Position numbers and translations under genes: made by a program. Shown here one piece after another: positions 1 through 14,903 of a stretch of 41,175 bases of DNA (position 1 is its first letter; each line of letters begins with the position of its first letter). Source of the DNA: a virus; the IMG/VR virus record IMGVR_UViG_3300046536_000116, positions 1 to 41,175 of that record. The stretch is one strand, 5' to 3'. The notes beneath the pieces were generated by a model that ran no database searches, was not told the origin of the DNA, and was given only the letters and a program-made list of their open reading frames with translations.

Positions 1-7
1 CTTGGAA

Positions 8-29
8 AGTTGTTGCGTACCAACAACTT
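8..29. repeat. Inverted repeat (hairpin) at the left end
   Basis: AAGTTGTTG is followed by the loop CGTAC and then CAACAACTT, a perfect 9-bp stem. It resembles stem III of the downstream hammerheads in sequence and loop size and is preceded by GGA. No CTGATGA core follows, so it is not a complete ribozyme. Confidence 0.6.
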
Positions 30-58
30 CAGCGCAACAGCTCTGCCTCAGCCTCAGG

Positions 59-94
59 CTCAAGATCGACATCACGCTCAAGATCGACATCACG
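59..94. repeat. Tandem 18-bp direct repeat
   Basis: The 18-bp unit CTCAAGATCGACATCACG occurs twice without interruption (59-76 and 77-94). Each unit carries the octamer CAAGATCG, which recurs at 98, 342, 617 and 2597 and inverted at 146 and 307. The likely role is protein binding in the control region. Confidence 0.8.
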
Positions 95-97
95 GAC

Positions 98-127
98 CAA
101 GATCGTTACCCGTCGGTAACTTATAAC
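98..127 (+). promoter_or_regulatory. CAAGATCG plus dyad upstream of a TATAAC box
   Basis: CAAGATCG (98-105) runs into the dyad GTTACC-CGTC-GGTAAC (105-120). This is followed directly by TATAAC (122-127), a good -10-like hexamer. No strong -35 hexamer is seen at the right distance. The arrangement suggests an operator next to a promoter. The same octamer-plus-dyad design recurs at 2597-2622. Confidence 0.45.
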
Positions 128-262
128 GGGCCTCTCCCGAGAAGTCGATCTTGACCCACACTAGGACCTGCCCTCGACCCCTACGGCCGTCTACGGTGTG
201 TTGACGCACGCGCAACACACACTCTAGGCCCCAGCCTACCCGAGCCGAGCCGGGCGACGGCT

Positions 263-363
263 ACGGAGAGTAACGAAACCAGAAGCTCCAGTTACGGAGA
301 GTAGTTCGATCTTGGTCCGGCTACGGAGAGTAACCGAAACACAAGATCGTTGTTACTCTCCGT
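263..363. repeat. Repeated ACGGAGAGTAAC boxes
   Basis: ACGGAGAGTAAC is found at 263-274 and 323-334, a close variant (ACGGAGAGTAGT) at 294-305, and the exact inverse GTTACTCTCCGT at 352-363. The inverted copy overlaps the -35 to spacer region of the promoter-like site at 350-377. This pattern is typical of repeated binding sites for one regulator. Which protein binds is unknown. Confidence 0.6.
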
Positions 364-377
364 CAACCATTTATAAC
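350..377 (+). promoter_or_regulatory. Candidate early promoter
   Basis: TTGTTA (350-355), a 16-bp spacer and TATAAC (372-377) resemble a housekeeping-sigma promoter. The inverted ACGGAGAGTAAC box overlaps the -35 end and CAAGATCG lies just upstream (342-349). The position fits a start for the early operon, giving a leader of about 280 nt to the first hammerhead. Confidence 0.5.
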
Positions 378-657
378 GGTTTGGTCTCGTTTAGGTAACG
401 AAACGGTAACTTCGGGCGCTCATCCCTGTTGGAGCAGGTAGGTTCTCTCTCGAACGTGAACGTGGACGCCGGGACCGACCGGCTGGCCAGCCTGGGTATG
501 AGCCGGGTGCCGCTGAACCTCAGGCGGCAGTGAGTCGGTACGATGAGGCGATCAGGCCCCGTTGAACTGAAGGCCCCGAGTCTGTGGGGCGCGCAGGGAA
601 AGCGGCTGGGACCTACCAAGATCGTAACTAACTCAAGAGAGTGAATCCTCCCTCCAA

Positions 658-766
658 TGACGAAACGTTGGGGCGTCGCATCAGTCGTCCGGTCAGCACC
701 GCGAACCGCACGCCGCGAACCTCAACGTCCATCGGAACCAAGGCCCAGTCCGATGCTGATGAGTCG
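658..766 (+). ncRNA. Type II hammerhead ribozyme 1 (extended stem III)
   Basis: Stem II is TGAC/GTCG (658-661 with 763-766). The core is GAAA (662-665) and CTGATGA (756-762). Stem III is CGTTGGGG with CCTCAACG (666-673 with 720-727, one GU pair) and carries a 46-nt apical insertion, unlike the 3-5 nt loops of most copies. The GTC triplet is 727-729, with predicted cleavage at 729/730. Stem I is CATCGG/CCGATG. It lies just before the first gene and has no gene upstream, so cutting here would trim the operon leader. Confidence 0.8.
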
Positions 767-793
767 GGCCACAATCCCTTGGAGGGAAACGAA

Positions 794-1231
794 ATGAACG
801 CCAACACCACTGTTCTGAAGACCAACGCTGGCCGCCACTTCCACCTGTTCGCTGACTGCGCTGCCCTGGAGACTGGGCGCCGCAACAGTGAGAAGGCTGG
901 CCGTGAGATCCACGTTGAGATGTGGGTGCCGTTCGCAGAGGCCATCGATGACGCCATGTTCGGCTGCATCGCGTGCCACAAGCGTGCGGGCGTGAGCCTT
1001 GCTCCTGAGGCCGACCGCAAGGCAGTCTACGCAGCGCGCGCCGCTGCTCGGCTGGCCAAGCGTGAGGCCAAGGCTGCGGCTCTGGCTGCCAAGGCCACCC
1101 CGGTGGCTGAGGTCACCGTCGTGGTCGAGACGCCTGCTGTTGTCGACACCATCGATGCTGACGTGGAGCGCATGCTCAACGCCATCATCACCTACCTGTC
1201 GCAGTTTGGCCTGACGGTCGCTGCGGCTTGA
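794..1231 (+). CDS. Small zinc-binding-like protein with Ala-rich C-terminus, unknown function
   Basis: A 145-residue protein. The ATG at 794 is chosen because GGAGGG (781-786) lies 7 nt upstream; the frame is open further upstream but that part is hammerhead 1. The first 65 residues contain HFHLFADC and CIACHKRAG, a possible H/C metal-binding arrangement. The remainder is rich in alanine and lysine (probably helical), followed by a short hydrophobic C-terminal stretch. It is the first gene of the early operon and its TGA provides the first base of hammerhead 2. I do not recognise a family. Confidence 0.8.
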   Translation: MNANTTVLKTNAGRHFHLFADCAALETGRRNSEKAGREIHVEMWVPFAEAIDDAMFGCIACHKRAGVSLAPEADRKAVYAARAAARLAKREAKAAALAAKATPVAEVTVVVETPAVVDTIDADVERMLNAIITYLSQFGLTVAAA

Positions 1232-1291
1232 GGCGAAACTCGTTGCCTAGCAACGAGTCCACCGGCTTGGTATGCCGGTGCTGATGAGCCT
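1231..1291 (+). ncRNA. Type II hammerhead ribozyme 2
   Basis: Stem II is AGGC/GCCT (1231-1234 with 1288-1291), GAAA is 1235-1238, and stem III is CTCGTTG/CAACGAG closed by loop CCTAG. The GTC triplet is 1257-1259 with predicted cleavage at 1259/1260. Stem I is CACCGGC/GCCGGTG (7 bp) with loop TTGGTAT, and CTGATGA is 1281-1287. The A of the upstream TGA stop codon is the first base of stem II. All core bases match the hammerhead consensus. Confidence 0.92.
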
Positions 1292-1309
1292 ACCAACTTG
1301 GAGGATGAA

Positions 1310-1486
1310 ATGGAAGACACTGGCCGAGTGTGGTTCATCGTTGAAGGTGACGTTGACCTGCTGACAGTCGAGCCCACCGGGCTTGACTATGAGACCTGGA
1401 CAGAAGCCAAGGATGAAGATGGTGACCTCTGGTATCTCTCAGATACTGGGACGGTGCTGTCTGCTGATGAGTTCTTTGGCGAGTGA
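1310..1486 (+). CDS. Small acidic protein, unknown function
   Basis: A 58-residue, strongly acidic protein (many Asp/Glu) with no recognised family. The ATG at 1310 follows GGAGG (1300-1304) by 5 nt, the standard spacing in this operon. It stands alone between hammerheads 2 and 3, and its TGA overlaps the first base of hammerhead 3. Small acidic early proteins of phages often bind host enzymes, but nothing here shows a target. Confidence 0.8.
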   Translation: MEDTGRVWFIVEGDVDLLTVEPTGLDYETWTEAKDEDGDLWYLSDTGTVLSADEFFGE

Positions 1487-1546
1487 GGCGAAACACGTTG
1501 GGAGCCAACGTGTCCGGTGACTTGGTATGTCACCGCTGATGAGCCT
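1486..1546 (+). ncRNA. Type II hammerhead ribozyme 3
   Basis: Stem II AGGC/GCCT (1486-1489 with 1543-1546); GAAA 1490-1493; stem III CACGTTGG/CCAACGTG with loop GAG; GTC 1512-1514, predicted cleavage 1514/1515; stem I CGGTGAC/GTCACCG with the same TTGGTAT loop as copy 2; CTGATGA 1536-1542. The upstream TGA shares its last base with stem II. Confidence 0.92.
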
Positions 1547-1565
1547 ACCAAACTGGAGGATGACA

Positions 1566-1757
1566 ATGGACAGAATCCGCAAGTGCATGCGATGCGGACA
1601 GCCGTTCACGTTGGGCCCCAAGCAGTCGTTCACCACGACCACTTGCCCCACGTGTCGTGAAGTCCAGGACCGCCACCAGTCGGCGGCCAGGCTTGACCGC
1701 AAGGTCAACCGTGGCCTCCAGGGTGGCTTCCCTAAGCCACCCAACTTGAGGTGGTGA
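1566..1757 (+). CDS. Small zinc-ribbon-like protein
   Basis: A 63-residue basic protein with two CxxC pairs, CMRC near the N-terminus and CPTC about 20 residues later, as in small zinc ribbons. The C-terminal third is rich in Arg/Lys. The ATG at 1566 is chosen for the GGAGG site at 1556-1560; in-frame starts upstream lie inside hammerhead 3. It may bind nucleic acid or a host protein. The exact role is unknown. Confidence 0.8.
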   Translation: MDRIRKCMRCGQPFTLGPKQSFTTTTCPTCREVQDRHQSAARLDRKVNRGLQGGFPKPPNLRW

Positions 1758-1816
1758 GGCGAAACTTGTTGCAGCGCAACAAGTCCATGGGGTTGAGCAT
1801 CCCATGCTGATGAGCC
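1758..1816 (+). ncRNA. Type II hammerhead ribozyme 4
   Basis: Stem II GGC/GCC (1758-1760 with 1814-1816); GAAA 1761-1764; stem III CTTGTTGC/GCAACAAG with loop AGC; GTC 1783-1785, predicted cleavage 1785/1786; stem I CATGGG/CCCATG with a 9-nt loop; CTGATGA 1807-1813. It directly abuts the TGA stop at 1755-1757. Confidence 0.9.
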
Positions 1817-1837
1817 GCTCACAATTTGGAGGATGAG

Positions 1838-1993
1838 ATGAACAAGTACACGATCCACCTGGTGAACGGTGATGGTGTTGTTGTGCGTGGTGTCATGACC
1901 ACCAGCGACGACACCGTGACGGTCACTGAGAAGGGTGGCAAGGCATACGTGTTCCCAAGCGCATCTGTCCTGTACTGGACGGTGTCAGCCTGA
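1838..1993 (+). CDS. Small protein, unknown function
   Basis: A 51-residue protein starting at ATG 1838, 5 nt after GGAGG in the stretch that follows hammerhead 4. It contains beta-prone Val/Thr-rich segments (VVVRGVMTTSDDTVTVTE) and no cysteine, membrane segment or known motif. Its TGA overlaps the ATG of the next gene (TGATG), so the two are translationally coupled and share one ribozyme-bounded unit. Confidence 0.75.
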   Translation: MNKYTIHLVNGDGVVVRGVMTTSDDTVTVTEKGGKAYVFPSASVLYWTVSA

Positions 1994-2139
1994 TGGCCAC
2001 GACGCACGACGTGTTCACGTGCCACTGCCACGAGACTTGCTCGTGGTGCACGGAGCCAGTGCTGAACAGCAGTCTGCGCGAGACCAACGATGGTGCGCGT
2101 ATCTGTCGTGCTTGCTGGGCAGTGTACACCAGCAAGTGA
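1993..2139 (+). CDS. Tiny cysteine-rich (zinc finger-like) protein
   Basis: A 48-residue protein coupled to the preceding gene by TGATG. It has many Cys/His (CHCHETCSWC, then CRAC), suggesting one or two bound zinc ions. No family is recognised. It ends 1 nt before hammerhead 5. With the neighbours at 794 and 1566 it belongs to a group of small putative zinc-binding early proteins. Confidence 0.75.
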   Translation: MATTHDVFTCHCHETCSWCTEPVLNSSLRETNDGARICRACWAVYTSK

Positions 2140-2140
2140 T

Positions 2141-2201
2141 GGCGAAACCTGTTGCGAGACAACAGGTCTGCGGGTGATGGGCAACCCCGCACTGATGAGC
2201 C
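2141..2201 (+). ncRNA. Type II hammerhead ribozyme 5
   Basis: Stem II GGC/GCC (2141-2143 with 2199-2201); GAAA 2144-2147; stem III CCTGTTG/CAACAGG with loop CGAGA; GTC 2166-2168, predicted cleavage 2168/2169; stem I TGCGGG/CCCGCA with an 11-nt loop; CTGATGA 2192-2198. The upstream TGA (2137-2139) is 1 nt away. Confidence 0.9.
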
Positions 2202-2222
2202 GCCCAACAATGGAGGATGACA

Positions 2223-2474
2223 ATGGCAGGCGATTACACGGGACCTGGACACCGCTTGGTGTCTGGTGAGGTCCCAGCCGTTGGGATGCGCGTGATGAAC
2301 AATGACCTCCGATGGGGTGTCATCGTTGAAGTTGCCGATCCTGACGGTCACCAGACCTGCGGATGGTACTGCTTGGCTTGGCACAAGGTTCAGGTTGATG
2401 GCCAGAGTGGCACGAGCAGTTTTAATTGTGACCGTTTGACCACGGTTGACAACATCCGCGTGAACCGTCGCTGA
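2223..2474 (+). CDS. Small protein, unknown function
   Basis: An 83-residue protein. An ATG at 2217 lies inside the GGAGG site, so the ATG at 2223 (6 nt after GGAGG) is preferred. It has a beta-rich look, with PAVGMRVMNNDLRWGVIVEV and several aromatic residues near the middle, as in small SH3-like or KOW-like folds, but no confident match. It stands alone between hammerheads 5 and 6. Confidence 0.78.
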   Translation: MAGDYTGPGHRLVSGEVPAVGMRVMNNDLRWGVIVEVADPDGHQTCGWYCLAWHKVQVDGQSGTSSFNCDRLTTVDNIRVNRR

Positions 2475-2476
2475 CA

Positions 2477-2533
2477 GGACGAAACACCATGACTACCATG
2501 GTGTCGCGGCATCATGTGCCGCCTGATGAGTCC
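2477..2533 (+). ncRNA. Type II hammerhead ribozyme 6
   Basis: Stem II GGAC/GTCC (2477-2480 with 2530-2533); GAAA 2481-2484; stem III CACCATG/CATGGTG with loop ACTAC; GTC 2503-2505, predicted cleavage 2505/2506; stem I GCGGCA/TGCCGC with loop TCATG; CTGATGA 2523-2529. The TGA stop ends 2 nt upstream. Unlike other copies, a further 111 nt of structured leader follows before the next gene. Confidence 0.92.
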
Positions 2534-2596
2534 ACAATAAAACTCATGAGTCTAGGACCTACCCAGGCCGGTCCGGCTGGCGTAGGCTCCGCGTAG

Positions 2597-2622
2597 CAAG
2601 ATCGTTTCCGATGGTCGGAAAC
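2597..2622 (+). promoter_or_regulatory. CAAGATCG plus dyad element in the leader of the 2645 gene
   Basis: CAAGATCG (2597-2604) runs into GTTTCCGA-TGG-TCGGAAAC, a perfect 8-bp inverted repeat (2604-2622). This repeats the octamer-plus-dyad design at 98-120. The upstream part (about 2554-2582) can also form an imperfect GC-rich hairpin. It could be an operator or promoter element inside the operon, or a structured 5' leader. Confidence 0.45.
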
Positions 2623-2644
2623 GTGTTGTGAATTGGAGGATGGA

Positions 2645-3169
2645 ATGACAGAGACCACTGTCAAGGCACCAACGGCTGAGGCCGATGGCGCCACCGAGGC
2701 AGAGGCTGCGGCCACACCTGAGAAGCCTGCGAAGACCATGCAGGAGAAGGTGACCGCAGCCATGCAGCGGCCCATGCCTGAGTTCCACGTTGACTTTGTC
2801 AACTGGCTCTCTGGCTACGGCGTGGACGACATTGACCTGCGGTCGGTGCTCGCTACGATGTCGCTGTACAACGTGTTCCGTGCCACGCCTGAGTTCATCG
2901 CCAAGCGCGATGCAGTGAAGGCTGACCGGGCCACGAAGACCAAGCCTGAGAAGGATCTCAGCACGCTCACGCCTGCTGAGGCCAAGGCTGAACTGGAGAA
3001 GATCCAGGCGGCTCAGGTTGCAGCGCAACAGCGTCAGGCCAAGCAGGCCGAGCGTGCCGCTGCGATCCAGGCGATGCTGGCTGAGGCTGGCGTCAGCACC
3101 GCATCGGATGCCGATGGCGAGGCGGTCGATGAGGTTGCGGTCGATGAGGAGACTGCCGAGGCTTTCTAG
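2645..3169 (+). CDS. Ala/Glu-rich helical protein, unknown function
   Basis: A 174-residue protein. The ATG at 2645 follows GGAGG by 5 nt. The N-terminal 35 residues are low-complexity Ala/Glu/Pro, the centre (FHVDFVNWLSGYGVDD) looks folded, and residues from about 105 to 150 are a long Ala/Gln/Lys helix, probably a coiled coil, before an acidic tail. No family recognised. It has its own leader with a dyad and is followed by a strong hairpin, so it may be expressed differently from its neighbours. Confidence 0.82.
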   Translation: MTETTVKAPTAEADGATEAEAAATPEKPAKTMQEKVTAAMQRPMPEFHVDFVNWLSGYGVDDIDLRSVLATMSLYNVFRATPEFIAKRDAVKADRATKTKPEKDLSTLTPAEAKAELEKIQAAQVAAQQRQAKQAERAAAIQAMLAEAGVSTASDADGEAVDEVAVDEETAEAF

Positions 3170-3182
3170 CCCAAGCAGCACG

Positions 3183-3215
3183 GTGGGCCCCAGGGTGACG
3201 CGCCCTGGGGCTCAC
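3183..3215 (+). terminator. Strong hairpin, possible terminator
   Basis: GTGGGCCCCAGGG and CCCTGGGGCTCAC form a 13-bp stem with one GU pair and a 7-nt loop. There is no T-run after it, which is common for actinobacterial hairpin terminators but makes the call uncertain. It lies between the 2645 gene and hammerhead 7, where it could cut down read-through or protect a 3' end. Confidence 0.55.
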
Positions 3216-3228
3216 CCCGCATGTCACA

Positions 3229-3285
3229 GGACGAAACTTGTTGCCTAGCAACAAGTCCAGCGCTAGTTGCGCTGCTGACGAGTCC
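3229..3285 (+). ncRNA. Type II hammerhead ribozyme 7 (U7C variant)
   Basis: Stem II GGAC/GTCC (3229-3232 with 3282-3285); GAAA 3233-3236; stem III CTTGTTG/CAACAAG with loop CCTAG; GTC 3255-3257, predicted cleavage 3257/3258; stem I CAGCGC/GCGCTG with loop TAGTT; core CTGACGA (3275-3281). The change falls at core position 7, the one position known to vary in hammerheads. It is separated from the upstream stop codon by about 60 nt that include the hairpin at 3183-3215. Confidence 0.88.
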
Positions 3286-3312
3286 AGATTGACTTCAATT
3301 GGAGGATTAGTA

Positions 3313-3768
3313 ATGCGTGCCGCCAAGATTATCATCACCATTGGTGCTCTCGTGACCGTTGCGGGCATTGCCCTCACGGCATGCGGGGCCAGTGGCGCGA
3401 CCAACTCGCCTGCCGTCAGCACGACGCCGGTGGCCGAGCAGTCGCAGGCACCGGACATGACGACAGGGCAGCAGAACGCTGTTCAGTCGGCGCAGTCCTA
3501 CTTGGACATGGGCAGTGGCTTCAGCCAGGCCGGTCTGATGGAGCAGTTGACCTCCACCTCAGGTGAAGGCTTCAGCAAGGCAGACGCAACGTTTGCTATC
3601 AACAACATCAAGCCGGACTGGAATGAGCAGGCTGTGCTCAGCGCCAAGGGTTACATGAAGATGGGCGGCTTCAGCCGTGCGTCGCTGCTTGAGCAGTTGA
3701 CGTCCAAGGCTGGTGCCGGCTTCACCCAGGCGCAGGCGCTTCACGCGCTGAAGGCTGTTGGGTACTGA
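3313..3768 (+). CDS. Ltp-like superinfection-exclusion lipoprotein
   Basis: A 151-residue predicted lipoprotein. The start is ATG 3313, 7 nt after GGAGG. Residues 1-23 form a signal peptide with a lipobox LTAC (Cys24), then a Ser/Thr/Pro-rich linker, then two copies of the Ltp helical repeat (about 55-98 and 102-151; key pieces AVQSAQSYLDMG, FSQAGLMEQLT and AVLSAKGYMKMG, FSRASLLEQLT, GFTQAQALHAL). Ltp of phage TP-J34 is membrane-anchored and blocks DNA injection by related phages through the tape-measure protein. By family this gene should guard the infected cell against superinfection. It has its own ribozyme-bounded unit. Confidence 0.88.
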   Translation: MRAAKIIITIGALVTVAGIALTACGASGATNSPAVSTTPVAEQSQAPDMTTGQQNAVQSAQSYLDMGSGFSQAGLMEQLTSTSGEGFSKADATFAINNIKPDWNEQAVLSAKGYMKMGGFSRASLLEQLTSKAGAGFTQAQALHALKAVGY

Positions 3769-3771
3769 ACA

Positions 3772-3828
3772 GGACGAAACCCCATGCGCGCCATGGGGTC
3801 CGCACGTGAAGCGTGCGCTGATGAGTCC
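3772..3828 (+). ncRNA. Type II hammerhead ribozyme 8
   Basis: Stem II GGAC/GTCC (3772-3775 with 3825-3828); GAAA 3776-3779; stem III CCCCATG/CATGGGG with loop CGCGC; GTC 3798-3800, predicted cleavage 3800/3801; stem I CGCACG/CGTGCG with loop TGAAG; CTGATGA 3818-3824. The Ltp gene's TGA is 3 nt upstream. Confidence 0.92.
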
Positions 3829-3850
3829 ATCAGAAAGTCAAGGAGGATGA

Positions 3851-4111
3851 ATGAGTGCGATGATCACCGAGGATTGGCAGATCGCATTGTTTGCGCTTCA
3901 GCAGGCAAAGCATCGGCTGCGTCTGGAGATCAACACTGGCATGCGCTTCAAGTCAAGCACCGTGAAAGCGTTGCGGAGTCTGGGATACACCAGCGCTCGC
4001 AACAACGTTGGCGCGCTGACTGACCTGGAGTACATGCTTGAGAAGATCGCAGACGGCAAGATGGTCTACGACAGCAGCACTCACCGATGGAAGGATGTTG
4101 GCGATGTCTGA
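3851..4111 (+). CDS. Small protein, unknown function
   Basis: An 86-residue protein. ATG 3851 lies 4 nt after GGAGG. It is mixed alpha-helical, with Lys/Arg-rich central residues (LRLEINTGMRFKSSTVKALR) that could bind nucleic acid. It reads as one folded domain with no known motif. It overlaps the next gene by 8 nt, so both are coupled inside the unit between hammerheads 8 and 9. Confidence 0.78.
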   Translation: MSAMITEDWQIALFALQQAKHRLRLEINTGMRFKSSTVKALRSLGYTSARNNVGALTDLEYMLEKIADGKMVYDSSTHRWKDVGDV

Positions 4112-4346
4112 GCAGCCGATTGTCGAGCAGCCTGAGAAGGGCAAAGACACATTCGTGGATGAGATTCCTGACTGTGACTTCGACAGCCCTGAAGAGCAGG
4201 CCAAGGCAACGGTCGATGGTGCGACCATCTTTGGCTACTGGGCGAACATGTGCAACTTCCACTGGCTGCAGTACGGTCGTGGGCTGGGCACTGGTGTCGG
4301 GCAGCGGCTTCACCCGCTTGCTGAGAAGCCTGAGGGTTGGGAGTAA
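4104..4346 (+). CDS. Small acidic protein, unknown function
   Basis: An 80-residue protein starting at ATG 4104 inside the end of the previous gene; a longer upstream frame exists but would overlap most of that gene. The N-terminal half is acidic and the C-terminal half is aromatic (FGYWANMCNFHWLQYG). No family recognised. It ends with TAA 2 nt before hammerhead 9. Confidence 0.75.
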   Translation: MSEQPIVEQPEKGKDTFVDEIPDCDFDSPEEQAKATVDGATIFGYWANMCNFHWLQYGRGLGTGVGQRLHPLAEKPEGWE

Positions 4347-4348
4347 CA

Positions 4349-4405
4349 GGACGAAACCTCATGCTAGCCATGAGGTCGCAGGCTGAATGCCTGCCTGATG
4401 AGTCC
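4349..4405 (+). ncRNA. Type II hammerhead ribozyme 9
   Basis: Stem II GGAC/GTCC (4349-4352 with 4402-4405); GAAA 4353-4356; stem III CCTCATG/CATGAGG with loop CTAGC; GTC 4375-4377, predicted cleavage 4377/4378; stem I GCAGGC/GCCTGC with loop TGAAT; CTGATGA 4395-4401. Confidence 0.92.
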
Positions 4406-4427
4406 AGATTGACTTGTGGAGGATGAA

Positions 4428-4619
4428 ATGTACGAGACCAGAGACGTCAGCCACCTCACCCTCAAAGCCGACAGCGATGTCGTCCGTGAGCAGGTCATCC
4501 GAATCAACCTTGATTCAATTGACATCGCTGAGAATGTCGACACCGTGCGTCTCGCCGTGATGACCTCTCGTGGTCGGGTGCGGTCGATGGTGTTCCGGCG
4601 TGATCAGGTGGTGTTCTGA
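4428..4619 (+). CDS. Small protein, unknown function
   Basis: A 63-residue protein. ATG 4428 follows GGAGG by 5 nt. Alternating hydrophobic and charged residues (VRLAVMTSRGRVRSMVFRR) suggest a small beta-sheet protein. No cysteine or membrane segment. The next gene starts immediately after its TGA, so they form a two-gene unit. Confidence 0.78.
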   Translation: MYETRDVSHLTLKADSDVVREQVIRINLDSIDIAENVDTVRLAVMTSRGRVRSMVFRRDQVVF

Positions 4620-4862
4620 ATGGCCACGTTGCGCAGCCCCAACGAGTTGGTTGAGGCTGGCATCGAAATCATGTTGGACGGCAAGGCGCCAGCCAATCGT
4701 GATGAGCAGGTGATGCTGATGAACTTCATGGCAGCAAACATCGCCCATGGAGTTGAGCCTGCTGCCTGCAGGTTGATGAAGACACTGTACGGAGACCACT
4801 TTGGTCTCCTCACAGATGACGATGTCGAGCGCATCGCTCTGTACCAGCAAGGTCTGAAGTAA
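4620..4862 (+). CDS. Small helical protein, unknown function
   Basis: An 80-residue protein that starts at the base after the preceding stop and so depends on coupled translation. It is predicted mainly helical and ends in DDVERIALYQQGLK. No family recognised. TAA is followed 2 nt later by hammerhead 10. Confidence 0.78.
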   Translation: MATLRSPNELVEAGIEIMLDGKAPANRDEQVMLMNFMAANIAHGVEPAACRLMKTLYGDHFGLLTDDDVERIALYQQGLK

Positions 4863-4864
4863 CA

Positions 4865-4921
4865 GGACGAAACCTGTTGGTAGCCAACAGGTCCGTGGGT
4901 AAGGCCCACGCTGATGAGTCC
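4865..4921 (+). ncRNA. Type II hammerhead ribozyme 10
   Basis: Stem II GGAC/GTCC (4865-4868 with 4918-4921); GAAA 4869-4872; stem III CCTGTTG/CAACAGG with loop GTAGC; GTC 4891-4893, predicted cleavage 4893/4894; stem I CGTGGG/CCCACG with loop TAAGG; CTGATGA 4911-4917. Confidence 0.92.
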
Positions 4922-4946
4922 AGGTTGACTTGCGTTGGAGGACAAA

Positions 4947-5513
4947 GTGGCATCAATCAAGTGCGGCAATTGCGGACAGAGCCATGAATCAACGGCCCAG
5001 GTCCGTACGTGCTACGCCACCCCCGCAGTGCCCAAGATCACGTCCAATCAAATGGGCTACCTGCAAAGTCTGATCACCTCACGCGTGACGCCAGATGGCA
5101 TCAATGGTGAGATGCTCCGTGACTTGAGCAAGGTTGAGGCCAGCAAACTGATCGACAAGATGCTGGGTCAGCCGTTTGTGACCAACGCTGGGCTCATCCC
5201 AGATGACATCCCCGATGGGCGCTATGCGTTCATCGAGGACAAGGTCGCAAGGTTCTACAGGGTCACGACAGACAAGCGGAACAACAGGAAAGTCCAGCGA
5301 GTGCTGGGTGCTCCTGGTGACTTCAGGTACATGCCGATCCCAAGAACAGAAGCACAGAAAGTCATCACGATCATCAAGGATGACCCTGCGCTTCACAGCC
5401 AGCTGTTTGGCCATGTTGTTGGGGCGTGCGGGGTGTGTGGCAGCCCATTGACCGATCCTGAGAGCATTGAACTCGGCATCGGTCCCATCTGCGCAGGCAA
5501 GATGGCTTGGTGA
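4947..5513 (+). CDS. DUF6011-like protein with zinc ribbons at both ends
   Basis: A 188-residue protein. The GTG at 4947 is chosen because GGAGG lies 5 nt upstream; the in-frame TTG at 4935 is inside that site. The N-terminus has a CxxC pair (KCGNCGQSH). The C-terminus has CGVCGSPLTDPESIELGIG followed by PICAG, which matches my memory of the DUF6011 signature, a small zinc-binding module found in many actinophage and bacterial proteins. The middle (about 35-155) has a helix-rich part, then a beta-rich part. The role is not established; nucleic acid binding is a reasonable guess. Confidence 0.82.
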   Translation: MASIKCGNCGQSHESTAQVRTCYATPAVPKITSNQMGYLQSLITSRVTPDGINGEMLRDLSKVEASKLIDKMLGQPFVTNAGLIPDDIPDGRYAFIEDKVARFYRVTTDKRNNRKVQRVLGAPGDFRYMPIPRTEAQKVITIIKDDPALHSQLFGHVVGACGVCGSPLTDPESIELGIGPICAGKMAW

Positions 5514-5571
5514 GGTCGAAACCTGTTGCCTAGCAACAGGTCCGTGGCTAAAGAGCCATGCTGAAGAGACC
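5514..5571 (+). ncRNA. Type II hammerhead ribozyme 11 (U7A variant)
   Basis: Stem II GGTC/GACC (5514-5517 with 5568-5571), a compensated change from the GGAC/GTCC of other copies; GAAA 5518-5521; stem III CCTGTTG/CAACAGG with loop CCTAG; GTC 5540-5542, predicted cleavage 5542/5543; stem I CGTGGCT/AGCCATG with one GU pair; core CTGAAGA (5561-5567), again altered only at position 7. It abuts the upstream TGA directly. Confidence 0.88.
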
Positions 5572-5588
5572 GGGAGGATTGGTGTTCA

Positions 5589-5807
5589 GTGAACGACAGC
5601 AGCAACAGAACGGTGGGTCATGCGAGCAAGCGTGCGCGTGGCTTCAAGGGCAGGCTTACCGTCGTGCCCAAGCCTCAGCCGGCAATCACAATCAAGCCGG
5701 ACCCACTGGCGTGGCGCACGGCTGTGCAACTTGCTGGTGGCGACCACAGCCGGTGCGTCGCTCAGAGTGACGGAACAGTCATGATCTACAACAACTCTGT
5801 GAGGTAG
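5589..5807 (+). CDS. Small basic protein, unknown function
   Basis: A 72-residue protein from GTG 5589, 11 nt after a GGAGG site, a longer spacing than usual here. The other frame open over this stretch ends at 5770 and looks like a shadow. The N-terminal half is basic (ASKRARGFKGR) and the rest is mixed, ending in QSDGTVMIYNNSVR. No family recognised. It is the first of three small genes between hammerheads 11 and 12. Confidence 0.68.
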   Translation: MNDSSNRTVGHASKRARGFKGRLTVVPKPQPAITIKPDPLAWRTAVQLAGGDHSRCVAQSDGTVMIYNNSVR

Positions 5808-5809
5808 CA

Positions 5810-5983
5810 ATGCCTGAAACGCAGAAGCACAAGTTGAGCCTGTTCCGAGGCAAGGATGGGTGGACAAGCGCCTGTCTTTGTGGATGGGTCGGCAGGGTCA
5901 GCGGCAGTCGCACATATGCTGAGAATGACGGCGATGATCACATGATCGCTGTCACTCGCAGCGAGCCAGATGAGGTGGCGTGA
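5810..5983 (+). CDS. Small protein with a CxC motif, unknown function
   Basis: A 57-residue protein starting at ATG 5810, 2 nt after the previous stop. It contains WTSACLCGWVGRVSGS, a pattern seen in small phage proteins with a single Cys pair and aromatic residues, followed by an acidic/His segment (DGDDHM). It overlaps the next start codon by TGATG. Confidence 0.7.
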   Translation: MPETQKHKLSLFRGKDGWTSACLCGWVGRVSGSRTYAENDGDDHMIAVTRSEPDEVA

Positions 5984-6189
5984 TGCCCAAGTACATGATC
6001 ATCTACAGGCTGCGAGATTCAGACGAGTGGCTGATGAACATGGCCTACTTCACGAATCACATTGGCGTGTTTGAGTATGACATGATCTTCACCATTCGCA
6101 CTGAGAATGGCGATGACAGTGTTCGTGTCATTGACTTGAACAAGGGCAATGTGACGAGTGAGATCAAGGATCCACGTTTGCCCAAGTAA
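5983..6189 (+). CDS. Small protein, unknown function
   Basis: A 68-residue protein starting at ATG 5983 within the TGATG junction. It is beta-rich, with aromatic and hydrophobic strands (YMIIYRLRDSDEWLMNMAYF, then VFEYDMIFTIRT). It may form a small barrel or sheet. No known motif. TAA is followed 2 nt later by hammerhead 12. Confidence 0.75.
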   Translation: MPKYMIIYRLRDSDEWLMNMAYFTNHIGVFEYDMIFTIRTENGDDSVRVIDLNKGNVTSEIKDPRLPK

Positions 6190-6191
6190 CA

Positions 6192-6246
6192 GGTCGAAAC
6201 GCGCCAGCCAGGCGCGTCGCTGGGTCGGGCCCAGCCTGATGAGACC
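6192..6246 (+). ncRNA. Type II hammerhead ribozyme 12
   Basis: Stem II GGTC/GACC (6192-6195 with 6243-6246); GAAA 6196-6199; stem III CGCGCC/GGCGCG with loop AGCCA, entirely different in sequence from other copies but fully paired; GTC 6216-6218, predicted cleavage 6218/6219; stem I GCTGGG/CCCAGC with loop TCGGG; CTGATGA 6236-6242. Confidence 0.92.
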
Positions 6247-6270
6247 ATCAGAAACCCATTGGAGGGCATG

Positions 6271-8088
6271 ATGAATCGCGACAACAAAGTTGTCGTGGAT
6301 GTAGACCTTGGTGAGAACAAAGTCATCACCATGTCTGCTTATCAAGAGGCTGATCCAGACAAATTCAAGGCGGCTGGTTTCTCTTGGCAGAAGACCACCA
6401 GAATGTGGCGAGCGCCACTGACGATGGACTCATGTCGAGCGTTGCGTCGTGAGTTTGGCAATCGGCTTGTTCTGTCGCCAGAGATCACTGCGTGGGCGAC
6501 AGCACAGAAGCAGGCAGATGCTGAGTTGCGTGAACTCGCCAAGGCTTCAGCCGCGACACTGACGGTCACGCCGACCCTTGCTCCCGCAATGGCCAAGTTG
6601 ATGGACAACCGCACCTATGAGCAAGTGGGCGCTCAATTCATCAACAAAGCGAATGGCAATGTGCTCATCGCTGATGAGCCAGGGCTGGGCAAGACTCTTG
6701 AGGCCATCAGTGGTCTCATGGAGGCTGGTCGGTGGGGTGGACCGATCTTGATTGCGGCTCCAATGACAAGCCTGCGGCCAACATGGCTGCGTGAACTGAC
6801 AAGGTTCACACCCGATGCTCACATCACGATTGGTGTCCCACCAACTCGTGACAGCGCAGCGGCCAGGCGAGAGTTGTTGGAGCGGTGGCTTTCTGCGTAC
6901 CTTGCGACGCCAGACGAGCCACACATCCTGGTGATCAACGCTGAGATGGTCAGGACGGCTGCGGAGAAGTTCCCAGTCATCGCTGGCATCACCTGGAACG
7001 CAATCATCCTTGACGAAAGCCACAAGTATCTCAGTGGCATTCGGAGTGCGCAGAATCTCACCTTGACTGGTGAGGCGATGTTGGCTCTCAAGGGTGACTT
7101 CAAGATCGCACTGAGTGGAACGCCCATGCGGGGCAAGCCTCGGAATTTGTGGGGCACGCTCCACTGGCTCAGGCCAAAGCAGTACACGTCATTCTGGCGT
7201 TGGGCTGGCCAGTACCTTGTCGTTGAGGAAGGCAAGTACGGCAAGATCGTGGGTGGTTTGAAGCCAGGCGTTGAGGCTGACTTGTACCACAGCCTGGACG
7301 GAATCATGTTGCGGCGCACCAAGTCTGAGGTGGTCAAGGAATTGCCACCGAAGCAGCACATTGATGTGATGTGCGACATGACAAAGGAACAAGCACGGCA
7401 GTACAAGCAGATGGAAGAGAAGTCATACACCGAATTGGGCGATGAGCGAATCACCGCTGCGGGTGTGCTGGCAATCATGACTCGCCTGAAGCAGATGGCA
7501 TCGTGTGCATGGGAGCCTGGGCCTGCTGGTAAGCCCAAGCCGCTCATGAACGCCAAGATGTCTGGCAAGGCGGCCATGATTGAGCAGATGCTCATCGAGC
7601 GTGGCATTGCTGGTGATGCCAGAGAGGGTGACGGCAAGATCGTCATTGCCTCTCAGTTCACAGAGATTGTGGACTCACTTGAGAAGTTCCTGGCCGAGAT
7701 CAAGGTGCCTACCATGAAGATTACGGGTGCCGTGAAGGAGAGCAGGCGGCTGGAGGTCACCCAAGACTTCCAGTCAGTCGGTGGACCACGAGTGCTGCTT
7801 ATGAACACCATGGCTGGTGGCGTGAGCATCACTCTGGATGAGCACTGCGATGAATTGATCATCATTGACGAGACGTGGGTGCCGGACGACCAGGAACAAC
7901 TGGAAGATCGGATTCACCGCGTCTCCCGCATTCACCAGGTGATGATCTACAGGTTGCTCACGACCGACACTGTTGATGAAGAGATTGATGGCGTCAACAT
8001 TGCGAAGGATCAAGTCCAGAAGCAATTGCTTGATGGACGTCGTGGAGTGGAATTGGCCAAGCGGCTACTGGGAGGACAAGCAGCGTGA
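6271..8088 (+). CDS. SNF2-family DNA helicase/translocase
   Basis: A 605-residue superfamily 2 ATPase. ATG 6271 is chosen for its 5-nt distance from GGAGG; the ATG at 6268 is an alternative. Residues 20-60 form a small N-terminal region (FKAAGFSWQKTTRMWRAPL) like the substrate-binding modules before some HARP/SMARCAL1-type helicases. Motif I is DEPGLGKT (135-142), motif II is DESH (248-251), and motif VI is QLEDRIHRVSR near 543-553. Such enzymes move on double-stranded DNA and remodel forks or displace proteins. It is the only large gene in the hammerhead operon and opens a four-gene unit between hammerheads 12 and 13. Confidence 0.9.
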   Translation: MNRDNKVVVDVDLGENKVITMSAYQEADPDKFKAAGFSWQKTTRMWRAPLTMDSCRALRREFGNRLVLSPEITAWATAQKQADAELRELAKASAATLTVTPTLAPAMAKLMDNRTYEQVGAQFINKANGNVLIADEPGLGKTLEAISGLMEAGRWGGPILIAAPMTSLRPTWLRELTRFTPDAHITIGVPPTRDSAAARRELLERWLSAYLATPDEPHILVINAEMVRTAAEKFPVIAGITWNAIILDESHKYLSGIRSAQNLTLTGEAMLALKGDFKIALSGTPMRGKPRNLWGTLHWLRPKQYTSFWRWAGQYLVVEEGKYGKIVGGLKPGVEADLYHSLDGIMLRRTKSEVVKELPPKQHIDVMCDMTKEQARQYKQMEEKSYTELGDERITAAGVLAIMTRLKQMASCAWEPGPAGKPKPLMNAKMSGKAAMIEQMLIERGIAGDAREGDGKIVIASQFTEIVDSLEKFLAEIKVPTMKITGAVKESRRLEVTQDFQSVGGPRVLLMNTMAGGVSITLDEHCDELIIIDETWVPDDQEQLEDRIHRVSRIHQVMIYRLLTTDTVDEEIDGVNIAKDQVQKQLLDGRRGVELAKRLLGGQAA

Positions 8089-8264
8089 GCGAGTTGACAA
8101 GGTGTAACTTCTGTATCCTCAACAACATCATCAGACGCTACAGTGGGTCTGGGATCAAGGTTGGGCTCCAGCCTGCTGAGGATGGCTCTGGCTGGATGGA
8201 AGTTTGGGTGGCTGGCCAGCGCCAGGCATCGTTCATGGAATTGACCGATCACTGCGTCTGCTGA
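8085..8264 (+). CDS. Small CxxC protein, unknown function
   Basis: A 59-residue protein from GTG 8085, overlapping the helicase stop (GTGA). It begins MSELTRCNFC and ends DHCVC, so two Cys pairs at the ends could hold one zinc ion. No family recognised. The overlap suggests coupling to the helicase. Confidence 0.7.
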   Translation: MSELTRCNFCILNNIIRRYSGSGIKVGLQPAEDGSGWMEVWVAGQRQASFMELTDHCVC

Positions 8265-8273
8265 GGAGAAGAA

Positions 8274-8432
8274 ATGGCTGGACGTTCTGGCACCTCTGTT
8301 CTGCTGAAGTTCTTCGGCAAGATCGACCCAACACAGACTCTTCAGGCATTTGCTGATGAGACGCACGACCTGTCTGACCGTGACTTTGAGCAATTGAAGT
8401 CAGGCATTGAGAGCGGCACCTTCACCTACTAG
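8274..8432 (+). CDS. Small protein, unknown function
   Basis: A 52-residue protein starting at ATG 8274 behind GAGGAG. It has a hydrophobic start (SVLLKFFGKI) and an acidic C-terminal half (DETHDLSDRDFEQLKSGIE). This composition resembles small phage proteins of unknown role. It is the third gene of the helicase unit. Confidence 0.68.
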   Translation: MAGRSGTSVLLKFFGKIDPTQTLQAFADETHDLSDRDFEQLKSGIESGTFTY

Positions 8433-8447
8433 GTCATGGGAGGCAAC

Positions 8448-8534
8448 ATGATCAAGTGGTGGCGCAGGCGTCGTGCTCGCCGTCGTGCCGAGTATGAGGC
8501 ATGGGTCAAGTACGACAGTCAGCCATACGACTGA
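8448..8534 (+). CDS. Tiny arginine-rich protein
   Basis: A 28-residue peptide from ATG 8448 with GGAGG 6 nt upstream. It begins MIKWWRRRRARRRAEYEAW, a run of tryptophan and arginine like nucleic-acid-binding or membrane-active peptides. A similar tiny peptide is encoded at 25482. Its TGA directly abuts hammerhead 13, as real genes do elsewhere in the operon, which supports the call. Confidence 0.65.
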   Translation: MIKWWRRRRARRRAEYEAWVKYDSQPYD

Positions 8535-8602
8535 GGACGAAACCTGTTGAGGGCCAACAACTCTCAGCAGGTCGCTGGCTACCTGGCCAGCCTGATGAGT
8601 CC
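8535..8602 (+). ncRNA. Type II hammerhead ribozyme 13
   Basis: Stem II GGAC/GTCC (8535-8538 with 8599-8602); GAAA 8539-8542; stem III CCTGTTGAG/CTCAGCAGG (9 bp, one GU pair) with a longer 11-nt loop; GTC 8571-8573, predicted cleavage 8573/8574; stem I GCTGGC/GCCAGC with loop TACCTG; CTGATGA 8592-8598. It is the last copy found in the window and directly abuts the upstream TGA. Confidence 0.88.
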
Positions 8603-8621
8603 AAATGGGAGGGTGAAGAAA

Positions 8622-8888
8622 GTGAACAACGAACGACGCAAGAAGATTGCTGAGGTTCAGGCCAAGTTAGAGGCAATCAGCATCATCAACCTGGTGCCTG
8701 AACTCCAGGTCCTGCTTGAAGAAGAGCAGTCCTACGTGGACAACATGCCTGAGTCATTGTCAGGCAGCGAGCGTGCGAGCATGGCTGAAGAGGCTGTGAA
8801 TGCGCTCGATGAGGCAGTGTCCAATCTTGAGGATGCTGCCAACACGCTCCAGGCGTCCATCGACGCACTGACCGATGCGGGTGCGTGA
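8622..8888 (+). CDS. Coiled-coil small protein
   Basis: An 88-residue acidic protein. GTG 8622 is chosen because GGAGG ends 9 nt upstream; in-frame starts further up lie in hammerhead 13. Almost the whole length is heptad-like helix (LEAISIINLVPELQVLLEEE, then DEAVSNLEDAANTLQASID), so it probably forms a dimeric coiled coil. No cysteine. It shares TGATG with the next gene and opens a four-gene unit. Confidence 0.75.
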   Translation: MNNERRKKIAEVQAKLEAISIINLVPELQVLLEEEQSYVDNMPESLSGSERASMAEEAVNALDEAVSNLEDAANTLQASIDALTDAGA

Positions 8889-9154
8889 TGGCCATACCCG
8901 CAGAGACGTTCACCATTGAGTATCAGATTGTTCCTGATAATGGTGAGCCATTCCCAATTGAACAAATGCAATTCTTCATCGACGGTGTCCCTGAGGACTG
9001 GGCCGTCTGTGAGGCCTGCGGCAAGGAGTGCACTGAAGGCTTCAACGGTGAAGTTGTTACCTGCACAGCATGCACGTTGCACTTCCTGTTCATGAGTGGC
9101 GATGTTCGCATTGTCTCATTCAATGGACAGCCAATCAAGATGGCTGGTGCGTAA
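8888..9154 (+). CDS. Small zinc-ribbon protein
   Basis: An 88-residue protein with two CxxC pairs, CEAC and CTAC, about 20 residues apart in the second half (residues about 40-65): a zinc ribbon. The first 38 residues are acidic and beta-prone. ATG 8888 overlaps the previous stop and TAATG couples it to the next gene. Function unknown. Confidence 0.75.
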   Translation: MAIPAETFTIEYQIVPDNGEPFPIEQMQFFIDGVPEDWAVCEACGKECTEGFNGEVVTCTACTLHFLFMSGDVRIVSFNGQPIKMAGA

Positions 9155-9375
9155 TGGCCATCGTGGAGGGTGTTGAATGCCCAAGAGGGCATGCGATTGA
9201 GTACAACGGCAATTACTTCTGTGTCACTGGTTGCTGGGTCATGGGTGAGGAGAGAAGCAAGTTCAACAAGCACATCATCAGGACCTACTTGCTTCAGGTC
9301 TACAACGATCCCAGGTCCACACCATCAGTCAAGGAAATGGTGCTTCACTACCTGAAGGAATACGCAGATGAGTGA
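9154..9375 (+). CDS. Small Cys/His protein, unknown function
   Basis: A 73-residue protein coupled to the previous one by TAATG. The N-terminal third has ECPRGHAIEYNGNYFCVTGC, a likely metal-binding knuckle, and the rest is helical (SKFNKHIIRTYLLQVY, then KEMVLHYLKEY). It could be a small DNA- or protein-binding factor. It overlaps the next gene by 8 nt. Confidence 0.75.
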   Translation: MAIVEGVECPRGHAIEYNGNYFCVTGCWVMGEERSKFNKHIIRTYLLQVYNDPRSTPSVKEMVLHYLKEYADE

Positions 9376-9871
9376 TGACAACGGGGTGCGTGGCTTCAAC
9401 AGCATGGAGGAAGCGTTTGCCTACATGGCTGAACAGCGTGAGCGTGCTGATGCAGGTGTTGTGCCTCTCCAGCGCACTTTGCTGGATGGGCAAGAGCATT
9501 GGTACTACACTGAATACTTCGGCCTGGCTATTGCAGGCTACATCCCCACCGTGGAAAGTCTCGTTGAAATTGAGCGAGGCTATTACGACATGACCGATCC
9601 GATGGACAAAGCCGAGTTTGAGTACACGGCAAACATGATGCGGAACATGGTCCACAACAACATCGTCCAGGTCAAGGCTTACTCCACGGTGGAGCCAAAT
9701 GGCGAGCCTGGCAGCACTCATGTGGTTGCCTGTTTGCCAATCACTGAAGAGGCATTTGACGAGTTCATCGCCAATGGCTTCAGAATGGGCAAGGACACAC
9801 CCACGCTCATTCGCAATGTCGTGGATGCAATGTCCACGATCGGAGAACAGATGGGAGAGGCTGGCAAATAA
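9368..9871 (+). CDS. Acidic protein, unknown function
   Basis: A 167-residue protein starting at ATG 9368 within the end of the previous gene. It is acidic with mixed helix and sheet, including FNSMEEAFAYMAEQRERAD near the start and repeated Met/Glu-rich helices. No catalytic motif recognised. It is the last gene of the early operon; a new promoter follows about 25 nt after its TAA. Confidence 0.78.
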   Translation: MSDDNGVRGFNSMEEAFAYMAEQRERADAGVVPLQRTLLDGQEHWYYTEYFGLAIAGYIPTVESLVEIERGYYDMTDPMDKAEFEYTANMMRNMVHNNIVQVKAYSTVEPNGEPGSTHVVACLPITEEAFDEFIANGFRMGKDTPTLIRNVVDAMSTIGEQMGEAGK

Positions 9872-9925
9872 CAGAATAAATAGACGCCGAAATACCTTGA
9901 TCCAACAGGGGAAACCCGGTAGAAT
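9868..9925 (+). promoter_or_regulatory. Promoter P1 of the replication operon
   Basis: TTGATC (9897-9902), an exact 17-bp spacer and TAGAAT (9920-9925) form a good housekeeping-type promoter. Directly upstream is an AT-rich segment ATAACAGAATAAAT (9868-9881) and a CGCCGAAA box. Both recur almost unchanged upstream of the structural operon at 26425, so the pair may be coordinately controlled. Transcription would start near 9932, about 20 nt before the next gene. Confidence 0.72.
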
Positions 9926-9951
9926 AGCCCTAGTGGACAGGAAGGAAACCG

Positions 9952-10161
9952 TTGGCGAGCAACGATGAAGTGCTTGAGGCCATTGCGAGCCTCAAGGCTC
10001 ATTCAGACAAGATGTTCCTAGCGCAAGACAGCCAATTCAGCGCTTTGTCTTACTTGCTTGAGCAGCAGACAAGGCGCTTGGACGAACAGGTGAAGTTGAT
10101 TGATCGCCTGCTGCTGCGCAACCACCAACTCCACATGGAAAGTTTGAAACGTGGCCGCTGA
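9952..10161 (+). CDS. Small coiled-coil protein
   Basis: A 69-residue protein from TTG 9952, 4 nt after AGGAAGGA. The protein is largely one long helix (SALSYLLEQQTRRLDEQVKL) ending in basic residues, and probably dimerises as a coiled coil. No family recognised. It is the first gene after promoter P1. Confidence 0.7.
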   Translation: MASNDEVLEAIASLKAHSDKMFLAQDSQFSALSYLLEQQTRRLDEQVKLIDRLLLRNHQLHMESLKRGR

Positions 10162-14072: not shown

Positions 14073-14903
14073 ATGTCGAGCGTTGCGGTATTGGGCTGTG
14101 GACCTGCGGGGTTGTTGGTCGCTCATGCGGCCCAACTCAGTGGCCACGGTGTCACGATCTTCAGCAGGAAAGTCAGGAGCCCCATGGAAGGTGCGCAGTA
14201 TATGCACACCGACATTCCAGGGCTCAAGGCACCCCAGCCGATGATCCTCAAGTACAGCCTCATCGGCTCTATCGATGAGTACCGTGCCAAGGTGTATGGT
14301 GCGGGTGACCCGGACATCGTTGTCTCACCTGAGCAATTTCTTGGTGAGCACAAATGCTGGGATATCAGGGCTATGTACAATCGGCTCTGGATGCACTGGG
14401 AAGGGCACATCGTCAACTTTGTCGTGACACAGGCGTCAATCGCGACAATTGTTGAGAGCCATGACTTCACGTTCAGCAGCATCCCATCGACGGCACTGTG
14501 TCGATTCGGCAATCACACTGAGAGTCCGCACAAGTTTGACTATGTGCCCGTGTGGATTGATGGAATGTGGAGTGGGCCGACACCAGCCGAAGATCCAGGG
14601 CTGTGGGGCCTCACCCCGCATGTGGTGCTTTGTAATGGGCTGAAGGCAGACCCAGGACGAACATTGCTAACAGGTTGGTACCGCACAAGTCACATTTATG
14701 GCCACAATAACACCGAGTGGTCATCGCCATCGCTCATTCCAGAGCACAGGCAAGTGGCGGAGAATCTCTGGCGAGTGCGAAAGCCCATAGGTACCAACTG
14801 TGATTGCTGGTCTGAGGTCATCAGGGTTGGGCGCTATGGCGCATGGAAGAAAGGTGTGCTGTCTCACGAAGCGTTCAATGTGGCCTTGGAAGTCCTGTCG
14901 TGA
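14073..14903 (+). CDS. FAD/NAD(P)-binding oxidoreductase
   Basis: A 276-residue protein from ATG 14073, behind GAGGTGGG. The N-terminus VAVLGCGPAGLLVAHAAQ is a dinucleotide-binding Rossmann motif (GxGPAG). The rest lacks a familiar second cofactor motif but has many aromatic residues and cysteines. It is shorter than most flavin monooxygenases. Lying among nucleotide-handling genes, it might act on a base or nucleotide. The substrate is unknown. Its stop overlaps the next gene's GTG. Confidence 0.75.
   Translation: MSSVAVLGCGPAGLLVAHAAQLSGHGVTIFSRKVRSPMEGAQYMHTDIPGLKAPQPMILKYSLIGSIDEYRAKVYGAGDPDIVVSPEQFLGEHKCWDIRAMYNRLWMHWEGHIVNFVVTQASIATIVESHDFTFSSIPSTALCRFGNHTESPHKFDYVPVWIDGMWSGPTPAEDPGLWGLTPHVVLCNGLKADPGRTLLTGWYRTSHIYGHNNTEWSSPSLIPEHRQVAENLWRVRKPIGTNCDCWSEVIRVGRYGAWKKGVLSHEAFNVALEVLS

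Follow-up and report, generated by a model that had tools for sequence, protein, structure and literature searches.

We found thirteen complete type II hammerhead ribozymes between the genes of one co-directional operon in a viral contig of 41,175 nucleotides (IMG/VR record IMGVR_UViG_3300046536_000116, analyzed at its full length and here called the window). Almost all of them directly follow a stop codon and shortly precede the next start codon, and we consider it probable that they actively cut the RNA between these genes. The features of the array are listed in Table 1.

Thirteen complete cores on one strand

A descriptor requiring, in order, stem II (≥3 bp), GAAA, stem III (≥4 bp, with A15.1-U16.1 as its closing pair), UH, stem I (≥3 bp) and CUGANGA was run over the whole window. 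The scan returned exactly 13 complete type II cores on the + strand, starting at the first coordinates of the hammerheads in Table 1, and none on the - strand; no match was found on either strand of 100 dinucleotide shuffles. An earlier note, made from the sequence alone, had claimed thirteen full cores of this type, and the scan bears it out, with twelve starts where that note had placed them and the fifth at 2140 instead of 2141. The core CUGANGA ... GAAA ... UH, in the order that leaves stem II open, was present at 13/13 sites, and no further ribozyme was detected past 8602. A coding or chance origin of the cores was ruled out by the shuffles, the strand bias and the covariation described below.

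An Infernal search with the Rfam type II model, which the earlier note had put forward as a check, did return matches, but only two of the thirteen sites, 2140 (41.2 bits) and 1231 (39.3 bits), passed the gathering score of RF02276 (37 bits); 6192 and 3772 were weaker matches, giving four sites in total with E <1. The Rfam model is insensitive for this hammerhead lineage, and since so few sites reach its gathering score, the Infernal/Rfam test by itself would under-report the array. Our own covariance model, built from 11 window copies, scored 12 sites at 55-79 bits and found nothing comparable in the rest of the window; 8535 reached 55.4 bits though absent from the training copies. One further match (6590-6681, 18.8 bits) was dismissed, as it lies inside the helicase gene and has no GAAA. 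Ribozyme 1 (658), with its long inserted stem III, appeared in this model as two weak pieces (14.8 and 7.0 bits); we accept it as a hammerhead because its orthologue in the related contig G019 (IMGVR_UViG_3300047160_000799) has the same layout and compensated stems.

In the alignment of the 11 copies, stem pairs were standard in 196/196 paired cells, and 13 of the 18 stem pairs changed on both sides, which was matched by 0/500 shuffles. Covariation in this alignment was 0.803; shuffles gave 0.185, and sliding the partner strand gave no more than 0.147. The three helices around the core are kept by covariation, which for 658 rests on one orthologue pair. When the sites were folded in context, stems I and III were strongly predicted at most of them, except that stem I was not strongly predicted at 658 in any context or at 3772 with flanks; stem III of 1486 was weaker with 100-nt flanks. 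The 4-bp stem II often went unpredicted in these foldings, which is expected of so short an open stem when tertiary energy is left out. A clear loop I-3' tail pseudoknot was present in the four GGC-type window copies and in none of the others; across the survey described below, such a pseudoknot of at least 4 bp was found in 155 of 972 ribozymes, versus 74 shuffled.

Table 1. Features of the ribozyme array and its leader, in window coordinates
Feature	Position	Strand	Remarks
Leader, non-coding	1..657	+	short direct and inverted repeats CAAGATCG/CGATCTTG and CTACGGAGAGTAAC
ATCCTCCCTCCAA, directly 5' of ribozyme 1 stem II	645..657	+	same sequence in G019
Hammerhead 1, type II, long stem III	658..766	+	predicted cut 729/730
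Shine-Dalgarno region of gene 1, TTGGAGGGA	779..787	+	predicted to be sequestered by upstream complement
Gene 1, 145 aa, no function assigned	794..1231	+	homologues at arrays in G019, G028, L663
Hammerhead 2	1231..1291	+	predicted cut 1259/1260; loop I-3' tail pseudoknot TTGGT/ACCAA
Gene 2, 58 aa	1310..1486	+	
Hammerhead 3	1486..1546	+	predicted cut 1514/1515; pseudoknot TTGGT/ACCAA; G019 orthologue before same gene
Gene 3, 63 aa, zinc-ribbon-like (weak)	1566..1757	+	
Hammerhead 4	1758..1816	+	predicted cut 1785/1786
Genes 4 and 4b	1838..2139	+	stop/start overlap TGATG
Hammerhead 5	2140..2202	+	predicted cut 2168/2169; best RF02276 match, 41.2 bits
Gene 5, 83 aa	2223..2474	+	
Hammerhead 6	2477..2533	+	predicted cut 2505/2506; 111-nt spacer, then next gene; G019 orthologue
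Gene 6, 174 aa	2645..3169	+	
Hammerhead 7	3229..3285	+	predicted cut 3257/3258; 59 nt from stop, sole distant internal one
Gene 7, lipoprotein with Lipoprotein_Ltp repeats, superinfection-exclusion family	3313..3768	+	no G019 match
Hammerhead 8	3772..3828	+	predicted cut 3800/3801; G019 orthologue; stem I unfavoured in context folding
Genes 8 and 8b	3851..4346	+	overlapping
Hammerhead 9	4349..4405	+	predicted cut 4377/4378
Genes 9 and 9b	4428..4862	+	abutting
Hammerhead 10	4865..4921	+	predicted cut 4893/4894; orthologues in G019, G028
Gene 10, 188 aa, DUF6011	4947..5513	+	
Hammerhead 11, N7 = A	5514..5571	+	predicted cut 5542/5543
Genes 11, 11b, 11c	5589..6189	+	
Hammerhead 12	6192..6246	+	predicted cut 6218/6219; orthologues before helicase in G019, G028
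Gene 12, 605-aa DNA helicase	6271..8088	+	then smaller genes up to 8534
Hammerhead 13, long stem III, last of array	8535..8602	+	predicted cut 8573/8574

Ribozymes are anchored to stop codons

We analyzed the position of each ribozyme relative to its neighboring genes. Eleven of the 12 internal ribozymes start at -1 to +3 nt relative to the preceding stop codon (3229 is the exception), and the next start codon follows 17-27 nt past stem II in 12/13, 2477 having the longer spacer. The predicted cuts fall 28-32 nt past the stop in 10/12 and 46-55 nt ahead of the start in 11/13. Gene junctions without a ribozyme lie inside blocks and are mostly overlapping or abutting, and several inter-ribozyme pieces carry 2-4 genes joined in this way. 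This stop-anchored placement, all on the + strand, upholds the proposal that the ribozymes separate the genes of one co-directional operon. The earlier description of an early operon holds as to the operon, while "early" is a reading of its gene content and position.

Recombination and replication genes follow downstream of 8602, and then packaging and structural genes. Among them, a HAD-like protein (14843-15511) matches a PHROG family annotated as polynucleotide kinase; it may have unusual RNA ends as its substrate, or may be a nucleotidase. In positions 1-10000, scans suited only to sigma-70 gave promoter-like and terminator-like sites no more often than expected by chance, and the promoter scan of this region found no transcript start for the operon. 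The unusual spacer after hammerhead 6 (2534-2644) holds an inverted repeat and the leader-like motifs ctaggacct and caagatcg, and is perhaps an internal promoter or operator. The phage host is probably actinobacterial, because of the Lipoprotein_Ltp superinfection-exclusion protein, the DnaE-like polymerase and the helicase, closest to actinophages.

The main rival to gene-by-gene processing is that active ribozymes shut the early genes off, either because the cut ends admit decay or because early and later genes are uncoupled. In its favor, the array ends at 8602, ahead of most replication genes and of every structural gene, and hammerhead cleavage leaves ends unlike those of normal mRNAs. 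However, the ribozymes lie exactly at gene borders, an intact Shine-Dalgarno sequence and start codon stand 17-27 nt downstream in 12/13, and both new ends abut a hairpin, an arrangement that suggests the pieces are kept useful; we regard shut-off as unlikely.

Conservation between related phages

We then compared the array with its relatives. A twin contig (IMGVR_UViG_3300047317_000073) is 100% identical to the window where the two overlap. Gene order is common to the window and G019, with ~30-70% amino-acid identity, and G028 (IMGVR_UViG_3300036832_000364) is more distant. Ribozymes stand ahead of the same genes at 1, 3, 6, 8, 10 and 12 in G019 and at 10 and 12 in G028; across the pairs at these shared junctions, 77 stem pairs were unchanged, 49 had changed on both sides, 1 had changed on one side and 1 was lost. 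Since window genes 5, 7 and 9 have no match in G019 or G028, ribozyme-gene units appear to come and go.

Such turnover touches on another explanation, namely that the elements are structured spacers or DNA homology for cassette swapping, with catalysis incidental or lost. In line with this, genes between conserved ribozymes differ among relatives, and copies within a genome are more alike than copies between genomes (stem III 0.45 vs. 0.36, stem I 0.52 vs. 0.39). Against it, the catalytic core is intact in 13/13 while the stems diverge with compensation, and recombination would favour conserved rather than covarying stems; we therefore give a purely structural role very little credence.

Apart from G002, helicase relatives at 34-40% identity lack an array, so the array is dispensable at this distance and arrays are a lineage trait. 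An ancient association between array and helicase was rejected, as among the 35 helicase loci found arrays were present only in the window's twin and G002. The twin and the window start at different points, and each is without a stretch of the other; the virus genome appears to be larger than either contig and circularly permuted. A near-identity search of the window in phages gave no match. A weak hammerhead-like match with an altered core (L662:7911-7955, 16.6 bits) lies upstream of the G028 gene 1 homologue and is perhaps a decayed first ribozyme.

The same geometry across viral contigs

Strict patterns each matched at least ~120 stretches in viral contigs, and one pattern gave 19 matches in 85,000 bacterial and archaeal genomes. 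The survey sample comprised 613 loci with 975 ribozymes, picked by stem II sequence and multiple hits, and thus shows existence and geometry, not prevalence. The stop-codon-anchored geometry was seen again in hundreds of viral contigs. For 376 ribozymes in other arrays the median distance was 2 nt to the stop and 25 nt to the next start, while random positions were scattered. In arrays of at least three, the upstream ORF ended at -3 to +15 nt in 266/323 (random positions, 34/124), and a start followed 10-45 nt downstream in 305/326 (random positions, 35/76). Ribozymes occurred on both strands in only 2 of 176 multi-ribozyme loci. In one contig (G059, that of L106), the hammerheads of the two strands form separate clusters, apparently two opposite operons, each with ribozymes. 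Two contigs assigned to Phycicoccus jejuensis and Streptomyces iakyrus (L247 and L249) have three hammerheads each with mirrored, identical spacing, and probably represent one phage or a cross-contaminated assembly.

When 100 viral records were searched whole, 35 had at least five ribozymes and 10 had at least nine; the maximum, 12, came from the twin, in which the model fails to detect the 658 copy. Thirteen is the largest array in the ~107 whole records examined, and forms part of a continuum.

Cultured phages were searched with RF02276 and the window model. R4 gave 8-9 hammerheads, phiELB20 8-10, Janus 11, Pablito 9, Hank144 8-9 and Dryad 3-7, while Microbacterium phage Hiddenleaf and Mycobacterium phage Hawkeye gave none. 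Like the window, the R4-like Streptomyces phages (R4, NC_019414; phiELB20; Janus, NC_054660; Pablito; Hank144) and Dryad carry 7-11 type II hammerheads among co-directional genes. In contrast to most window copies, theirs mostly have a GGC/GCC stem II, and there is little gene homology with the window beyond shared families. The stretches read in R4, Janus, Pablito and phiELB20 carry no RNA annotation. Three tiny annotated genes of R4 coincide with ribozymes: gp60.1, gp67.1 and gp75.1 (41762-41845, 44125-44217 and 47073-47174 of NC_019414) overlie hammerhead matches and are probably not genes. The annotated starts of R4 gp72, gp76 and gp81 run through ribozymes.

The leader and the first ribozyme

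In the twin contig, the coding sequence of the structural genes stops just upstream of the leader, of which ~352-536 is 67% identical in G019. The leader motifs CAAGATCG/CGATCTTG and CTACGGAGAGTAAC are possibly operators or promoters. CAAGATCG repeats are also present ahead of the array in G028. A folded leader RNA was unsupported (MFE z-score -0.45), and weak leader matches outside G019, L140 among them, were dropped as coding or unrelated sequence.

Directly upstream of stem II of ribozyme 1, TCCCTCCAA (649-657) is perfectly complementary to TTGGAGGGA, so that the predicted stem II extends past a bulge into a 9-bp helix covering the Shine-Dalgarno sequence of gene 1. G019 keeps both the end of the leader and the Shine-Dalgarno region almost unchanged, whereas its stems I and III have diverged with compensation; the first-gene proteins of the two phages share 55% amino-acid identity. 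Among 975 ribozymes outside the window, G019 alone has the perfect 9-bp helix. A Shine-Dalgarno-hiding helix as a general feature was rejected, since beyond G019 five loci have weaker complements. The helix may simply clamp stem II or may gate translation of gene 1. Many later genes of the array have the ribosome-binding site GGAGGAT, and the leader RNA freed by the predicted cut contains its complement, ATCCTCC. Any fuller regulatory role for ribozyme 1 is conjecture; that it acts as a gate, with ribosome binding excluding ribozyme folding, and that the freed leader could repress or time later genes in trans, we offer as a doubtful but conceivable scheme.

Proposed processing of the operon

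We infer an operon promoter, one long transcript, cutting during infection and a benefit to the phage. A long co-directional transcript would begin in the leader, and a type II hammerhead would fold co-transcriptionally after each stop codon and cut after C17 of GUC. The earlier note had expected about thirteen short mRNAs; thirteen cuts would instead give 14 RNAs, namely the leader RNA, twelve mRNAs carrying one to four genes, and the rest of the transcript. At its 5' end each mRNA would carry a hydroxyl and the stem I hairpin, ~50 nt before the start codon; at its 3' end it would carry the stem III hairpin and a 2',3'-cyclic phosphate, ~30 nt after the stop codon. The most likely benefit would be that protected ends let each block have a lifetime and a level of translation of its own, with a single promoter and without reliance on host RNases, a gain of independent, end-protected mRNAs that we rate at roughly an even chance. 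Gene and ribozyme could then be gained or lost as a cassette. Cutting may be incomplete, because ribosomes ending or starting translation would sit on parts of each ribozyme.

Tandem hammerheads elsewhere make circles (PMC7761336), and by analogy with viroids and retrozymes the ribozymes might cut and religate to give RNAs that are circular, or trimmed and ligated. However, the constant-length repeated unit of retrozymes is absent here, the inter-hammerhead units being coding genes of unequal length, and the protein scan recognized no ligase, save for the HAD protein that matches a kinase-annotated family. Perreault et al. sought circular or spliced products and saw none (PMC3088659). Religation is the least probable reading we considered, and we favor cutting into separate mRNAs.

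Relation to known hammerheads

The idea that hammerhead clusters in phages divide transcripts into gene-sized mRNAs goes back to Perreault et al. (2011); members of the class cleave after C17, small phage clusters do so in vitro, and one triple cluster cleaves in Escherichia coli (PMC3088659). A 2017 review regarded the roles of prokaryotic hammerheads as an open question (PMC6155905). Hammerheads are also bound by aminoglycosides (cited in PMC9239200). The window copies resemble the RF02276 class (PMC3088659) in their full core, open stem II and closed stems I and III, and those with GGC/GCC share the loop I-3' tail pseudoknot described for it; unlike that class, most have a GGAC/GTCC or GGTC/GACC stem II, short stem I loops and scores below the cut-off.

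As in the phage clusters of 2011, several hammerheads lie on one strand between the genes of one operon. In the prophage clusters (the Agrobacterium ardA triple, Azorhizobium and Clostridium scindens), several hammerheads likewise flank single genes and were proposed to process long phage transcripts (PMC3088659). The window differs in having 13 in one operon, stop-codon-anchored and conserved between phages, with a first ribozyme predicted to sequester a Shine-Dalgarno sequence. HHphage of the haloarchaeal viruses HF1/HF2 also lies shortly upstream of a helicase gene on an early transcript, with a mapped 5' end near the cut (PMC3088659), but is a single ribozyme with core insertions in an archaeal host.

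We found no description of large phage hammerhead arrays in the open-access literature. The arrangement and a proposed role for it were already in print in 2011, and arrays of 7-11 lie unannotated in cultured Streptomyces phages. Provisionally, and measured against the open-access literature, the new elements are the array size, the stop-codon rule, the conservation between phages, the arrays of cultured Streptomyces phages and the first ribozyme with its predicted Shine-Dalgarno-hiding helix.

The strict order of stop codon, ribozyme, ribosome-binding site and start codon recurs in hundreds of viral contigs, and the ribozymes at shared junctions are conserved. Because cultured phages carry 7-11 unannotated copies, R4 on Streptomyces coelicolor or Janus on S. 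xanthochromogenes for example, the function of phage ribozymes is directly testable. If ribozyme 1 is indeed a gate, one self-cutting RNA would be both a processing step and a regulator of the early operon. If the cuts occur, these phages would process polycistronic mRNA by RNA catalysis alone, and would offer a ready-made toolkit for building multi-gene operons.
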